Positions 20,476 through 43,451 of a stretch of DNA of 44,380 nt are shown here, piece by piece. Each line of letters starts with the position of its first letter. Position 1 is the stretch's first letter. Source of the stretch: Candidatus Gemmiger faecavium. Lineage in GTDB: Bacteria; Bacillota; Clostridia; Oscillospirales; Ruminococcaceae. Under the pieces are notes generated by a model. That model did not search any database and was not told where the DNA came from. It saw only the letters and a list, made by a program, of their open reading frames with translations. Location of the stretch: contig DXFO01000001.1 in the NCBI GenBank assembly GCA_019114415.1, positions 1 through 44,380 of the forward strand, given 5' to 3'. Made by a program: the position numbers and the translations under genes.

Positions 20476-20760
20476 AAAAAACGGCCCTCATCTCCTGCTT
20501 TCCAAGAGACAAAGGCCGGTAAAAGCTCTCTGCGGTACCACTCTCATTGATATGCCGGTAAAAGCATACCCACTCAACGGGCTTCCAACAAAGCCCTGCA
20601 CGCTAACGGGTGCGGCCGTATCCGCTTACTGGGGAAAACCGGTTGGGCGGATCTGCTCAGGGATGACTTCACACGCGGTATGCCCGCCGCCTTGCACCGA
20701 CCGGCGGCTCTCTGTGGGGTTCCGCAGCGTTACTACTTCCCATCCACGCATTTCGGATTT
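20476..20760 (-). promoter_or_regulatory. T-box leader of ilvBNCD
   Basis: Senses an uncharged branched-chain tRNA and allows read-through into ilvB. On the minus strand the T-box core AGAGTGGTACCGC is at 20532-20544. Its UGGU would pair with a tRNA end of discriminator A, as in tRNA-Val, -Ile and -Leu. Stem I is visible further 5': GAAGTAGTAACG near 20728-20739, AGAGAGCCGCCGG (about 20701-20713) and GTGAAG...CCTGAG. A terminator follows the core: CGGCC (20482-20486 on the plus strand) pairs with GGCCG (20514-20518), then six T on the transcript. The specifier codon is not certain; pairing ACGC/GCGT leaves GTG (Val, 20670-20672) in the loop. Confidence 0.9.
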
Positions 20761-27290: not shown

Positions 27291-27431
27291 ATGTTCAATA
27301 TGGATACGTTTCTGCCGGTCCTGGCCAAGGCTTTGCAGGGCTGGATGGGTGTGTTTGTCGTCACCCTCATTCTGATCGCGCTGGTGTATCTGTTCAACCA
27401 GCTGTTTTCCAACGATTCCAAAAAGCAGTGA
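27291..27431 (+). CDS. 46-residue single-helix membrane protein, possibly an OadG-like gamma subunit
   Basis: Short gene starting at ATG 27291, 19 bases after the oadB stop, with AAAGGGG about eight bases before it. The product begins MFNMDTFLPVLAKALQGW, continues with one strongly hydrophobic helix (about residues 19-37: GVFVVTLILIALVYLFNQLF) and ends SNDSKKQ. Sodium-pump gamma subunits (OadG) also have one N-terminal helix of this kind with a short tail, and the gene order beta-then-small-protein favours that role. It lacks the proline-rich zinc-binding tail of enterobacterial OadG. Function is inferred from position and topology only. A terminator follows. Confidence 0.7.
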   Translation: MFNMDTFLPVLAKALQGWMGVFVVTLILIALVYLFNQLFSNDSKKQ

Positions 27432-27465
27432 ATTCTGCACTGTCGGCGGCCTGACAGCAGGCCGG

Positions 27466-27510
27466 GCGGCGTGTCTGTCTCCATGGGGGAGGCGGACACG
27501 CCGCTTTTTT
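27466..27510 (+). terminator. Terminator after the oadB unit
   Basis: GCGGCGTGTC (27466-27475) pairs with GACACGCCGC (27495-27504), then six T. Confidence 0.9.
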
Positions 27511-27563
27511 GATTCTTGTTGTGAAAAATGGCCGAAACAAGGGCTTTCGACCATAAAAATTTG

Positions 27564-27592
27564 TTGACAAATCTTTCTTCAAACGGTAGAAT
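27564..27592 (+). promoter_or_regulatory. Promoter of the sigma-factor gene
   Basis: TTGACA (27564-27569), 17-base spacer, TAGAAT (27587-27592). Confidence 0.87.
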
Positions 27593-27628
27593 GATTACAT
27601 TCGTGGATGCCCGGCAGGAGGCATGGCA

Positions 27629-28171
27629 ATGCAGCATTTGGACCCCGCGCTGATCGAAAAGGCAAAGACCGGAGACGAAACCGCGCTGGCCGCCCTGATC
27701 GCCCGCATGATGCCCGCCATCCGCAGGGGCGCGGCGGGATGCGCCGTACCCGGCCTCGACTTTGAGGACGCGGTGCAGGAAGGCCTGATCGGCCTGTTCG
27801 ACGCCGTGCGCAGCTACGATCCCGGCCAGGGTACCGGCTTTGCCGCCTATGCCTCGGCCTGCATCACCCACGCACAGCAGGATGCCTGCCGCGCGGCCTT
27901 GCGCAAAAAGCATTCACCTCTCAACACCAGCGTGCCGCTGCCGGAAGACTCCGCCACGCCTGGACCGGAGGAACTTGCCATTGCGGGCGAGGCCTTCGAC
28001 GACGTAATGCACCGGATGGAGACGCAGCTGTCTCCGCTGGAGCGCAGTGTGCTGGAATATGCCATGGACGGCTGTTCGGCTGCCCGCACCGCCCAACTGC
28101 TCGGGCGGGAACCCAAGGCGGTGGAAAACGCCCTGGCACGCGCCCGACGCAAACTGCGCGGTGCGCCGTGA
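27629..28171 (+). CDS. Sigma-70 family factor resembling sigma-H (Spo0H)
   Basis: RNA polymerase sigma factor of 180 residues with regions 2 and 4 only. ATG 27629 is preferred over ATG 27623 because AGGAGG (27616-27621) then has a seven-base spacing. Region 2 is LDFEDAVQEGLIGLFDAVRSYDP and the segment ending AACRAALRKKHSPLN-like (ACRAALRKKHSPLN), close to the KHxPLN of Bacillus sigma-H. Region 4 is LSPLERSVLEYAMDGCSAARTAQLLGREPKAVENALARARRKL (about residues 134-177). Spo0H-like factors control transition-state and early sporulation or competence genes; the target set here is unknown. It has no adjacent anti-sigma gene. No terminator separates it from the tRNA-like sequence that begins 38 bases downstream. 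Confidence 0.82.
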   Translation: MQHLDPALIEKAKTGDETALAALIARMMPAIRRGAAGCAVPGLDFEDAVQEGLIGLFDAVRSYDPGQGTGFAAYASACITHAQQDACRAALRKKHSPLNTSVPLPEDSATPGPEELAIAGEAFDDVMHRMETQLSPLERSVLEYAMDGCSAARTAQLLGREPKAVENALARARRKLRGAP

Positions 28172-28209
28172 ACTTTTTTGGAACCCGGCTGAAAGGCCAG
28201 GCAATATAT

Positions 28210-28280
28210 GCCCCCAGTAGCTTAACATTCAGAGCGTTGGTCCTTAACCAAAGGTGTCGGTTGAAATCCTTCCGCGGGCA
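28210..28280 (+). pseudogene. Degenerate tRNA-like sequence (nearest tRNA-Arg-like) in the zinc-ribbon gene leader
   Basis: About 70 bases follow the order of a tRNA: acceptor GCCCCC (28210-28215), GTAGCTTAA and AGAGC of the D arm, anticodon arm TTGGT...ACCAA, AAAGG variable region, and a T-arm-like GTCGGTTGAAATCC ending GCGGGC (28274-28279). It resembles Firmicute tRNA-Arg. Key features are damaged: the loop between TTGGT and ACCAA has five bases, not seven; the D-loop GG pair is missing; the T-loop reads TTGAAAT; the acceptor has mismatches; no CCA follows. It is therefore not a working tRNA. It ends 28 bases before the next start codon, so it may be a pseudogene or a reused structural element. 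Confidence 0.55.
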
Positions 28281-28307
28281 AAACTAAACAAAGAGGAGAT
28301 ACCCACT

Positions 28308-28583
28308 ATGTTCGAAGACAAGACTTTAGTATGCAAGGATTGCGGCAAGGAGTTCGTCTGGACCGCCGGCGAGCAGGAGTTCTACGCCAGCCGTGGTTTC
28401 GAGAACCAGCCCCAGCGCTGCAAGCCCTGCCGCGATGCCCGCAAGAACGCTACCCGCGGTGAGCGCCAGATGTTCGACGCTGTCTGCGCCAGCTGCGGCA
28501 AGGAGTGCAAGGTTCCTTTCCAGCCGCGTGAGGACCGTCCGGTCTACTGCAGCGAGTGCTTCGCCAAGATGCGCCAGAACTAA
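28308..28583 (+). CDS. Double zinc-ribbon protein (zf-trcl type)
   Basis: Small protein of 91 residues with two four-cysteine zinc sites: C9-C12-C38-C41 (LVCKDCGKEF...RCKPCR) and C60-C63-C81-C84 (VCASCGKECKVPF...VYCSEC). The blocks FVWTAGEQEFYASRGF and VPFQPREDRPVYC match the zf-trcl and zf_Tbcl_2 families. These are of unknown function and often labelled zinc-binding or cold-shock associated; nucleic-acid binding is plausible but not shown. ATG 28308 follows AAGAGGAGAT. The high codon regularity suggests strong expression. The leader contains the tRNA-like sequence, and a strong terminator follows the stop. Confidence 0.87.
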   Translation: MFEDKTLVCKDCGKEFVWTAGEQEFYASRGFENQPQRCKPCRDARKNATRGERQMFDAVCASCGKECKVPFQPREDRPVYCSECFAKMRQN

Positions 28584-28620
28584 TTTCTGACTGTATCGGC
28601 AAGCCACAGGTTTTGCAACA

Positions 28621-28671
28621 AAAAGGGCGCGCTTCCCTTTGGGCATGATGCCCGGGGCAGCGCGCCCTTTT
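28621..28671 (+). terminator. Terminator of the zinc-ribbon gene
   Basis: AAAAGGGCGCGC (28621-28632) pairs perfectly with GCGCGCCCTTTT (28660-28671). It ends 22 bases before the next start codon. Confidence 0.88.
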
Positions 28672-28692
28672 GATGCACAGGGAGGAAACGGA

Positions 28693-30180
28693 ATGCAACC
28701 TGTAAAAATACCGGCCGTCAAACGGATCTTATGGTGCCTGGGCGCGGCGGTCCTGCTGCTGATGATCTGCTCCAAGTCGTCGCCCTTGTACCCTCTCAAC
28801 GACTGGATGGACGCCAACATCTTCTATACCATGGGCAAGGCCATGATGAACGGCAGCGTGCTCTACCGGGATGTCTTCGACCACAAGGGCCCGCTGCTTT
28901 ACCTGATCTACGGTCTGGGCTGGTGTGTGGATCACACCGGATTTTTCGGCGTCTTTCTGTTTGAGATCGCAGCCTTCGCGGCCTTTCTCTACTGGTCGCT
29001 GCGTACGGCGGAACTGTTTGCTGGGCCGCTGCACCCGGCCTGGGCGCTGGCGGCGGGGGTTCCGGTAGCGGCAGGCCAGGCCTTTGCCCATGGCGGCAGC
29101 GCCGAGGAGCTTTGCCTGCCTTTCCTGGCCTGGGCCTTGTATGAGGTCCTGCATTTTGCCTTGCAGACCCCGGCAGACCGCCGCCCGGTATCCCTGGGGC
29201 GTGTTGCGGCGCTGGGATTTGGCGCAGGATGCGTGCTGTGGGTCAAGTTCACCATGATGGGCTTTTTCCTGGGCTGGGTGCTGGTGCTGGCGGTATTCTA
29301 CCTGCGGGCAGGCTGGCTGCGGCAGCTGGGCCTGAGCTGCGCCGCCTACCTGGGCGGCATGGTCCTTTCCACATTGCCCTGGCTCGTTTACTTTGGCGTA
29401 AACGGTGCGCTGGGTGATTTCTTCGGCACCTATTTCGGGGATAATCTTTTCCTTTACAGCGGGGGCGGCCAGGGGGACACCGGTTTTGCCGCCACCTTGC
29501 TTGCCATCGTGCAAAAGACCTACTGGGGCTGTCACGACACCCCACTGTTTGCGGTCCTGGCTGCACTGGGAATCCTCTGGATGCTGCTGCGCCGCCGATT
29601 TGCCGGTGCGGTCTCAATGGTGGTTCTGGCCGCGGCGCTGGCCGCCACCGGCTTTGCCCGCGGCGCTTACCATGTTTATTACTTCCTGCCTTTCGGGGTG
29701 TTTGCGGCACTGGGCGTTGCGCCCCTTGCTCTGGCAGCTCGGAAACTGTCCGCGGCCGTCAAAACTTTCCGGAACTTGCTGCCCGCCGCAGGAGCGGCGG
29801 CCGCGCTGGCCTTCTGCCTGCTGACCTGCCATAACGTGGGGCAGCTCCTTCGACCGGCGGAAGAACTGCCCCAGTATCAGTTTGCATCCATTATGGAGGA
29901 GAACGGCGGAGGGACGCTGCTCAATTACGGCACACTGGACGGCGGTTTCTATACCGTGACGGGCGTGCAGCCGCCCTGCCGGTTTTTCTGCGTGACCAAC
30001 CTGCCCATGCCCGAACAGCAGGAGCAGCAGAACGCCCTGATGGAATCCGGCGGGGTGGACTTTGCCGTCTCCCTGGACCCGTCCCTGGGGGAGCGCTTTG
30101 ACTATACGCTGACGGCACAGGCGGAGTACGACGGCGGCGAGGGCAGCATTACCTGGTATCTGTATCGCAAAAACAGCTGA
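28693..30180 (+). CDS. GT-C type membrane protein (glycosyltransferase family 39-like)
   Basis: Integral membrane protein of 495 residues with about eleven helices, start ATG 28693 after AGGGAGGA. After the first helix, the outer loop reads NDWMDANIFYTMGKAMMNG then VLYRDVFDHKGPLLYLIYGLG. A D-x-H-K-G-P motif after an acidic loop is typical of the PMT_2/GT39-like family that uses lipid-linked sugars; a general acid/base aspartate is expected in that first loop. The last 90 residues are probably a small outer domain. The acceptor could be a cell-surface polymer. No other glycan gene is adjacent. It has no clear promoter, as the preceding terminator ends only 22 bases upstream, so some read-through is likely. 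Confidence 0.75.
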   Translation: MQPVKIPAVKRILWCLGAAVLLLMICSKSSPLYPLNDWMDANIFYTMGKAMMNGSVLYRDVFDHKGPLLYLIYGLGWCVDHTGFFGVFLFEIAAFAAFLYWSLRTAELFAGPLHPAWALAAGVPVAAGQAFAHGGSAEELCLPFLAWALYEVLHFALQTPADRRPVSLGRVAALGFGAGCVLWVKFTMMGFFLGWVLVLAVFYLRAGWLRQLGLSCAAYLGGMVLSTLPWLVYFGVNGALGDFFGTYFGDNLFLYSGGGQGDTGFAATLLAIVQKTYWGCHDTPLFAVLAALGILWMLLRRRFAGAVSMVVLAAALAATGFARGAYHVYYFLPFGVFAALGVAPLALAARKLSAAVKTFRNLLPAAGAAAALAFCLLTCHNVGQLLRPAEELPQYQFASIMEENGGGTLLNYGTLDGGFYTVTGVQPPCRFFCVTNLPMPEQQEQQNALMESGGVDFAVSLDPSLGERFDYTLTAQAEYDGGEGSITWYLYRKNS

Positions 30181-43122: not shown

Positions 43123-43451
43123 CGGCTGCGAACGGCTTGTGAAGAACATCCGTTCAACACAAGCCACGATATGCGTTGATGCGGGAGGTTGCCGTGCGAT
43201 GAACACGGGTTTTTCCGCGGAGTATGTCCGATCTTAGAACCGGGCGAAAGAATTACGAATGCGAAGGGATACGTACGGCGCTGCATTCTGCGGTACGGAC
43301 CAATGTCCAATCGACTTTGCGAGGGATTCTTTCCGGGGGAACTGCGTGTGCGGTTCACCGGTTTTTCTCATGCAAAGGGGTTGAACACCCGGAAGCGTGT
43401 GTGATTTATCGGCTCGCCTAAGGCAACAAATTCATTCAGGAGGCGAAGACA
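43123..43451 (+). promoter_or_regulatory. Long leader of the S10 operon with terminator-like hairpin
   Basis: About 330 bases of untranslated RNA. GGCTTGTG (43134-43141) pairs with CACAAGCC (43158-43165). CCGTG/CACGG with five T follows at 43192-43214. A stronger hairpin at 43333-43361 (GAACTGC/GCGGTTC with outer CCGG/CCGG) is followed by TTTTT (43362-43366), 85 bases before rpsJ. Together this looks like an attenuator, as ribosomal operons use for feedback by a ribosomal protein. L4 binds the S10 leader in other bacteria; whether it does here is not known. Confidence 0.6.

Follow-up and report, generated by a model that had tools for sequence, protein, structure and literature searches.

In Escherichia coli, threonyl-tRNA synthetase controls its own message through the thrS operator, an mRNA leader that mimics anticodon arms and binds ThrRS. 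The element described here is likewise an mRNA leader imitating parts of a tRNA, but it has lost the anticodon that the operator mimics. A tRNA-like leader as such is already known, as the yjdF riboswitch has been published with a tRNA-like fold in its leader (PMC9142559). According to the accessible text of that paper, a tRNA-like leader raises translation in vitro: cis-tRNAs placed before the Shine-Dalgarno sequence gave a 2-6.3-fold increase, and mutation of the ACCA end led to a minimal loss of this gain. The same text indicates two differences from our element. In yjdF, the D-loop GG is more than 97% conserved, whereas it was found in 18 of the 99 elements that we aligned, and yjdF masks the Shine-Dalgarno sequence, whereas the element shows little predicted pairing with it (in 7% of 94 leaders).

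A second comparison is with tRNA genes themselves. With the tRNA family (RF00005), the element shares the cloverleaf, the core bases and the T-loop, and scores reach 44.6 bits in a relative (L230). In contrast to a tRNA gene, it has neither an anticodon loop of fixed size nor a CCA, and it is tied, in the strong matches that we fetched, to zf_Tbcl, a gene encoding a small zinc protein. The same chromosomal place, after sigH, is held elsewhere by a tRNA-Gly(CCC)-tRNA-Thr(GGU) pair; these are functional tRNAs with anticodon and CCA, followed by tuf, while the element precedes zf_Tbcl instead. In the accessible open-licence literature, we found no report of this zf_Tbcl leader element.

Results

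We analysed a window of 44,380 nucleotides from Candidatus Gemmiger faecavium, whose genome is 2.5 Mb. An earlier note on this DNA had described a tRNA-like 70-mer between a sigma-factor gene and a zinc-ribbon gene, with a five-base anticodon loop, no D-loop GG, an altered T-loop and no CCA. All these features were found by direct reading (Table 1), and relatives confirmed the 70-mer. Its 5' end is 38 nt past the stop codon of the sigma gene and 28 nt separate its 3' end from the ATG of zf_Tbcl at 28308. Its acceptor pairs cleanly in the outer 4 bp only, and its T-stem contains two mismatches (U-U and C-U). The canonical tRNA T-loop is TTCGAAT. The window copy is therefore devoid of both sides of the elbow contact, GG and C56. 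The upstream gene is of the SigH type, as the best NCBIfam models were SigH (108 bits), but it remained under the equivalog cut-offs. The closest zf_Tbcl proteins among named records came from Gemmiger, then from Faecalibacterium.

Table 1. Features of the sigma factor-zf_Tbcl locus (positions in the window)
Feature	Position	Strand	Basis and remarks
Sigma-70-type promoter-like site, TTGACA-17-TAGAAT	27564..27592	+	Consensus scan, 11/12; 5' of sigma-factor gene
SigH-type sigma factor gene, 182 aa	27623..28171	+	Sigma70_r2 and r4_2; upstream neighbour of element
Weak terminator-like site, 5-bp stem then ACTTTTTTG	28157..28170	+	Consensus scan; sigma gene end
tRNA-like element, 70 nt	28210..28279	+	Model R1 72.1 bits; RF00005 26.0 bits
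Outer acceptor stem, 5' half, GCCC	28210..28213	+	Direct reading; double changes among relatives
D-arm, stem GCTT (28220-28223)/GAGC (28232-28235)	28220..28235	+	8-nt loop without GG; direct reading
Anticodon-arm relic, TTGGT (28237-28241)/ACCAA (28247-28251)	28237..28251	+	5-nt loop CCTTA; direct reading
T-arm, 7-nt loop TTGAAAT (28261-28267)	28256..28272	+	T54 and A58 kept, C56 lost; direct reading
Outer acceptor stem, 3' half, GGGC	28276..28279	+	A at 28280 next, no CCA; direct reading
Shine-Dalgarno-like GAGGAG	28293..28298	+	Direct reading
zf_Tbcl gene, 91 aa, two treble-clef zinc domains	28308..28583	+	PF13451 86.8 bits, PF23477 72.8 bits, TIGR04272
Inverted repeat AAAAGGGCGCGC...GCGCGCCCTTTT, a putative terminator 3' of zf_Tbcl	28621..28671	+	By eye

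By single-sequence evidence, which is modest, the window element is borderline. RF00005 matched it below the gathering score of 29 bits, with an E-value of 0.0011 over 171 bases that becomes about 0.3 by our arithmetic when rescaled to the whole window. ARAGORN called no tRNA at the element in the window, and its plain minimum-free-energy fold was not a cloverleaf and had an ordinary folding energy (z -1.19). Two features expected of a functional tRNA gene are missing from the window copy: it obtained 26.0 bits against 29, and its anticodon loop has 5 nt instead of 7, the distance inside the first three anticodon-arm pairs being 2-22 nt across the 99 elements of relatives. In the Rfam release used, the element appears as a tRNA match only, sub-threshold in the window, and yjdF was not among the three matches at E ≤ 10 for 28160-28330. 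A T-box leader (RF00230, 99.6 bits) is present elsewhere in the window, at 20519-20755 on the minus strand, and this family gave no match at the element; on these Rfam matches, we rejected membership in yjdF or in the T-box family. An S10-Clostridia ribosomal protein leader (50 bits) was detected at 43168-43247 on the plus strand. Comparison with relatives raised the window element far above chance.

For this comparison, we used a covariance model, R1, built from an alignment (A1) of 30 zf_Tbcl gene leaders. Searched on the window's own genome, R1 gave 23 matches altogether at E ≤ 10; the element came first with 72.1 bits, and the next seven (40.4-31.0 bits) were all real tRNAs. Samples of genomes from the order, the class and the phylum were then scanned, and the figures given here refer to the matches listed. 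In the order scan (297 genomes), every genome had a match at E ≤ 0.01 because real tRNAs match R1 too, but the strong matches formed a class apart from the real-tRNA ones. Among the 70 strong matches listed and fetched (47.2-73.9 bits; G221 and G167, scoring in the same range, are outside these 70), zf_Tbcl adjoined on the same strand in 68, the two exceptions being a contig end (L179) and a real tRNA-Arg (L182). These 68 loci spanned 13 family codes (f1, f2, f3, f7, f8, f9, f12, f17, f18, f20, f21, f23 and f24). Several of the loci numbered L031-L110 come from the same genomes as G-numbered loci. A further 60 leaders of the zf_Tbcl type were examined, most of them outside the order but within the class; the set included paralogues and loci already known to have a weak element or none. 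R1 reached at least 34 bits in 13 of them (f43, f85, f33, f53, f50 and, within the order, f1, f19, f24); among the others, several had a weaker match or a form that was reduced to the eye, and many showed none. In the phylum sample (299 genomes), 38 genomes had a match at E ≤ 1e-11 among those listed. The 18 new loci fetched from this sample were all real tRNAs (15 Thr, 3 Arg), none with zf_Tbcl, giving no evidence of the element beyond the class. With RF00005, the covariance-model search that the earlier note had suggested, the window remained sub-threshold, but 9 of the 13 distant loci given were above the cut-off (31.2-38.9 bits). ARAGORN itself reported a tRNA at the element in three loci, as tRNA-Leu(caa) in L135 and L141 and without a type in L210. 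These results show that the structure of the tRNA-shaped element is conserved across the order of the window, in 13 family codes, and beyond it in other families of the same class.

Then, we determined which parts of a tRNA are kept. Distinct elements (99) were aligned with a fitted model to give alignment A3, whose rows were picked by their match to R1, itself derived from A1, so that base frequencies in A3, as in the alignment A5 described below, lean to R1. In this set, U8 was found in 98, A9 in 99, A14 in 99 and A21 in 98 elements; G45, A44 and G26 were found in 97, 92 and 88, respectively. In the T-arm, G53, C61 and A58 were invariant and T54 was present in 98, with a T-loop of 7 nt in 96. 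Contrarily, C56 was kept in 47 elements, and with GG in 18 the canonical elbow is mostly absent; 14 of the 18 elements with GG also had C56 (Fisher p 0.008, uncorrected for kinship). CCA was encoded in none of the 99 elements, an A lay next to the matched 3' end in 71, and AU-rich sequence preceded the 5' end. What would serve decoding (anticodon) and charging (CCA) is thus lost, while the tRNA core and the T-arm are kept. The near-invariant core bases point to constraint on the tRNA core, with the elbow contact probably optional. For Gemmiger-type forms, D-loop/T-loop complementarity was -4.08 against -3.11 +/- 0.30 kcal/mol in swaps, 1 of 200 swaps being as low, but with just 26 of 49 loci parsed, into 9 distinct forms, we base no claim on this. 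The Gemmiger-type elements of L027, L028, L030 and L265 are about 25-37 nt longer than that of the window, with an insert in the anticodon-arm region.

In A3, 91.4% of cells were paired compared with 84.4% in shuffles, and both sides had changed in 12 of 17 pairs (7.0 in shuffles) and in 122 cells (37.0); none of the 500 shuffles, which ignore kinship, showed covariation as high. When the partner was slid by one base, pairing fell to 50-56%. Since an alignment fitted to a model favours its own structure, the count was redone with MAFFT alone. This alignment, A5, was made from 79 of the 100 A3 elements, with an additional terminal base in a few; the other 21 were excluded by hand, being near-duplicates or, for several, elements with long inserts or gaps (including L147, L184, L185, L187, L204 and L247). 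Pairing in A5 was 89.0% (84.3% in shuffles), with both sides changed in 11 of 17 pairs (6.2) and 76 cells (27.7), and again none of 500 shuffles, kinship being ignored here too, was as high. The compensatory changes that the earlier note had proposed to look for among related genomes are therefore present in a structure-blind alignment. Covarying pairs were found in the outer acceptor, the T-stem and the anticodon stem. The D-stem, paired in 100% of cells, is almost invariant and so says little on covariation. The weakest pairs were T-stem pair 50-64 and acceptor pair 5, which was unpaired in 54 of 92 cells, the acceptor being reliably paired over 4 bp only. When the 30 founders were taken alone (A1, aligned with MAFFT), the signal was weak (4 pairs against 2.4; 45 of 500 shuffles as high), indicating that covariation surfaces only with more distant sequences, which were picked by model score. 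A conserved tRNA-like secondary structure thus stands before one gene family.

These data bear on two simple explanations. The earlier note had held that the sequence is a tRNA mimic if conserved and a pseudogene if not. A decaying tRNA pseudogene without function would account for the missing anticodon and CCA and for the strong alteration of some Gemmiger copies. It is contradicted by the conservation of position, orientation and covarying structure across many families, and by the 29 loci of the genus, in which conservation was 0.80 in the element, against 0.71 in the spacer before it and 0.53 at the end of the sigma gene; the 28 nt after the element, at 0.83, are about as conserved as the element itself. 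On the covariation seen in A3 and A5, we rejected a simple pseudogene, and we regard it as highly improbable, even if the sequence is very probably a former tRNA gene. The mimic is the better branch, since the element occupies the same place in many families and its helices covary. Alternatively, the GCCC/GGGC stem might matter by itself, as an mRNA stabiliser or cistron spacer, the tRNA body being unused ancestry; by eye, L051, L068, L078, L083, L103, L253 and L260 have only a short GCC/GGC hairpin. A passive stem would require neither the covariation of the T-stem and anticodon stem nor core tertiary bases that are near-invariant across families, and we find this explanation unlikely.

Next, we looked at relatives in which the element is altered or lost. 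The note had stated that its proposal would fail if the element were absent or drifting in close relatives that keep the zinc gene. The outcome is mixed: the element persists in distant genomes, but it is strongly changed in several Gemmiger lineages. Of 18 loci of the genus searched with R1 besides the window, L002, L003, L005, L020 and L026 gave no match in the leader (E ≤ 1); by eye, the anticodon arm is missing in L023, L024 and L026. In other clades, a different hairpin and a short GCC/GGC stem were seen by eye at the place of the element. As some close relatives degenerate or replace the element while keeping zf_Tbcl, it is not indispensable. A hairpin of the approximate form GCGA-n-ATCAGC-loop-GCTGATCGC lies in the last 90 nt before zf_Tbcl in L078, L083, L098, L100, L108, L109, L110 and similar loci without the element, and looks like another leader RNA.

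In several families of Clostridia, the raiA RNA (RF03072) was found directly 5' of zf_Tbcl (L225, L233, L234, L237, L238, L241 and L242). It took the place of the element, with 157-186 bits, in 7 of the 20 loci given to Rfam, which had been picked partly for look-alike leaders; L288, L289 and L290 come from the same genomes as L237, L241 and L225, respectively. In L290, the order is comF-raiA RNA-zf_Tbcl-HPF/YfiA hibernation factor-secA. The accessible text of PMC11706538 gives comFC and raiA as the usual neighbours of the raiA RNA and does not mention the zinc gene with it. On its other side, in the stretches 3254-4725 of L102 and 3162-5270 of L059, the gene next to zf_Tbcl encodes a TrmK tRNA methyltransferase (by Pfam in L102, by eye in L059), after which comes NIF3 in L102 and an NFACT/RqcH-type gene in L059.

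Across 37 sequences chosen among the 80 closest loci, the zf_Tbcl protein itself is invariant at 49 positions. Its predicted structure (pLDDT 83, pTM 0.41) gave no Foldseek match at E ≤ 0.001, the best being at 0.084, and a sequence search against solved structures returned mainly C2H2 and LIM-type fingers with weak E-values. Autogenous control, in which zf_Tbcl or another RNA-binding protein would bind its own tRNA-like leader and repress or stabilise the message, would suit this strong conservation. It would also agree with the fact that each strong match fetched, bar contig ends and real tRNAs, precedes this one gene family, and the raiA RNA next to zf_Tbcl, in loci picked partly by eye, may hint at RNA biology. 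Against it, no match to an RNA-binding protein was obtained, and near-identical zf_Tbcl proteins occur both with and without the element; we consider autogenous control improbable.

To trace the origin of the element, we compared it with real tRNAs. The earlier note had likened it to tRNA-Arg. Under R1, whose GCCC/GGGC ends may favour such tRNAs in the ranking, the tRNAs of the window's own genome ranked otherwise: Thr(CGU) 40.4, Phe 37.9, Thr(GGU) 37.4 and Thr(UGU) 35.2 bits all outscored Arg(CCG), which came sixth with 31.2 bits. Plain alignment was no more supportive of tRNA-Arg, and we discarded this identity. Against 51 tRNAs of G403 (parsed by ARAGORN from the fetched stretches, the genome having 59 RF00005 matches), plain alignment found no single nearest tRNA and did not single out Thr, so that descent from tRNA-Thr is argued from model ranking and synteny.

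The class scan was informative in this respect, as 16 of the loci fetched among the matches listed were real tRNAs, 14 Thr(GGU) and 2 Asn. Of the 14 Thr(GGU) loci, 12 showed, by eye, a sigH gene just upstream (confirmed by model for L196); of the others, L195 ends at a contig border and L203 has none. A tRNA-Gly(CCC) adjoined the Thr gene in 9 of the 14, and tuf came next in the seven in which a frame or start was seen (L190, L193, L195, L196, L198, L199 and L202), EF-Tu being confirmed by model in L196. Many Clostridia thus have the order sigH-tRNA-Gly(CCC)-tRNA-Thr(GGU)-tuf. In parallel, among the 60 further zf_Tbcl leaders, a tRNA-Gly(CCC) was found just 5' of the element, weak remnants included, in 11 loci (f43, f32, f85 and f69), and L291 and L293 read yacP-sigH-tRNA-Gly-element-zf_Tbcl (SigH confirmed by model in L291, the rest by eye). 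Elements of f43 (L208, L209 and L267) have their first twelve letters, GCCCATGTAGCT, in common with the tRNA-Thr(GGU) of L190; G403's own tRNA-Thr(GGU) starts differently. The tRNA-Gly(CCC) before the element, together with this gene order, makes an exapted tRNA-Thr most likely, and we propose the tRNA-Thr(GGU) of the sigH-tRNA-Gly(CCC)-tRNA-Thr(GGU) locus as the most likely source gene. That zf_Tbcl now occupies the place held by tuf in other Clostridia is strongly supported. The identity of the element and its descent from a tRNA, whichever the source gene, appear highly probable to us, and the old tRNA gene has probably found a new use in the control or processing of an mRNA.

Finally, we considered how the element could be expressed. 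An open frame of at least 100 codons ended within 150 nt before it in 84 of 91 loci, at a median distance of 23 nt. Such closeness makes co-transcription plausible, and transcription together with the sigma gene would be the simplest reading, extra starts being possible in some lineages. Promoter-like sites scoring at least 9/12 preceded the element in 18 of 99 loci, a moderate excess over the 7.8 expected. The consensus scan of the window found the site before the sigma gene as the sole promoter-like one in 27400-28750 (0.2 expected from shuffles) and four terminator-like sites in the scanned region against 2.2 expected; the inverted repeat after zf_Tbcl is absent from that list, the loop limit of the scan being 8 nt. 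The weak terminator-like site that ends the sigma gene argues against co-transcription in the window and, if real, would set the element apart from the sigma transcript. Together with the promoter-like excess, it suggests that some lineages may begin transcription at the element.

Punctuation of the transcript by tRNA processing is one way in which such a co-transcribed element could act. RNase P and/or RNase Z would cut the sigH-zf_Tbcl transcript at the element and separate the message ends, a role that the tRNAs would have had in the sigH-tRNA-tRNA-tuf transcript of the ancestor. Both enzymes read the acceptor end, the T-arm and the core and do not need the anticodon, and an absent CCA suits RNase Z. 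The short distance from the upstream frame, the retention of just these parts, the consistent lack of CCA, the A that often follows the 3' end, the AU-rich sequence before the 5' end and the real tRNA-Gly next door in four families would all fit. On the other hand, the acceptor is reliable for 4 bp only, with pair 5 mostly open, the elbow bases are mostly lost, and the promoter-like excess and the terminator-like site speak for separate transcripts in some cases. On balance, we hold cleavage at the element to be rather unlikely, though likelier than autogenous control or a passive stem.

The distance from the end of the element to the start codon was 23-42 nt (median 32). The Shine-Dalgarno core was often predicted to be partly paired, with a median unpaired probability of 0.475 over 94 leaders, but pairing with the element itself (P > 0.5) was predicted only in the few noted above. 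No masking switch is thus visible, and we rejected a switch of this kind.

Discussion

Given that no masking is visible and that tRNA-like leaders bring gains in vitro in the accessible text of PMC9142559, we commit ourselves to translation enhancement through the tRNA fold, by analogy and tentatively, at a likelihood that we put somewhat short of even. The RNA of the element, made as part of the sigma-gene transcript or from a promoter close by, would fold like a tRNA some 32 nt ahead of the zf_Tbcl start codon. The ribosome or a tRNA-binding partner could then meet it as a tRNA body, and initiation of zf_Tbcl translation would be promoted. The element would in that case be a constitutive or weakly regulated enhancer instead of a switch masking the Shine-Dalgarno sequence. 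A point against enhancement is that yjdF, by the same text, needs the D-loop GG, which is infrequent here. Further points against it are the weak covariation among the founders, the terminator-like site at the end of the sigma gene, the 28 nt behind the element, which are no less conserved within the genus than the element, and the clades and Gemmiger species that keep zf_Tbcl but have lost or replaced the element.

On a broader view, which we offer as a possibility and a doubtful one, a tRNA-Thr gene at work between sigH and the gene after it would have been converted early in Clostridia into a lasting part of an mRNA, and its body, without anticodon and CCA, would still be treated as a tRNA and would control or delimit the message of the nearly invariant zinc protein. 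With the raiA RNA at this gene in other lineages, zf_Tbcl would have been paired repeatedly with structured RNA because its product works on such RNAs or is controlled by them.

For genome annotation, the tRNA-Leu calls made by ARAGORN at L135 and L141 indicate that the element is a possible source of false tRNAs. Its natural variants, with or without the elbow bases, the anticodon arm or a tRNA-Gly neighbour, would allow a test of which part of the tRNA body is active. The locus also draws attention to an uncharacterised, highly conserved zinc protein that some lineages link to sigH and that is joined at L290 by the raiA RNA, ComF and a ribosome hibernation factor. The element itself would be a natural conversion of a tRNA into a cis-acting part of an mRNA, with both the ancestral and the derived locus visible.
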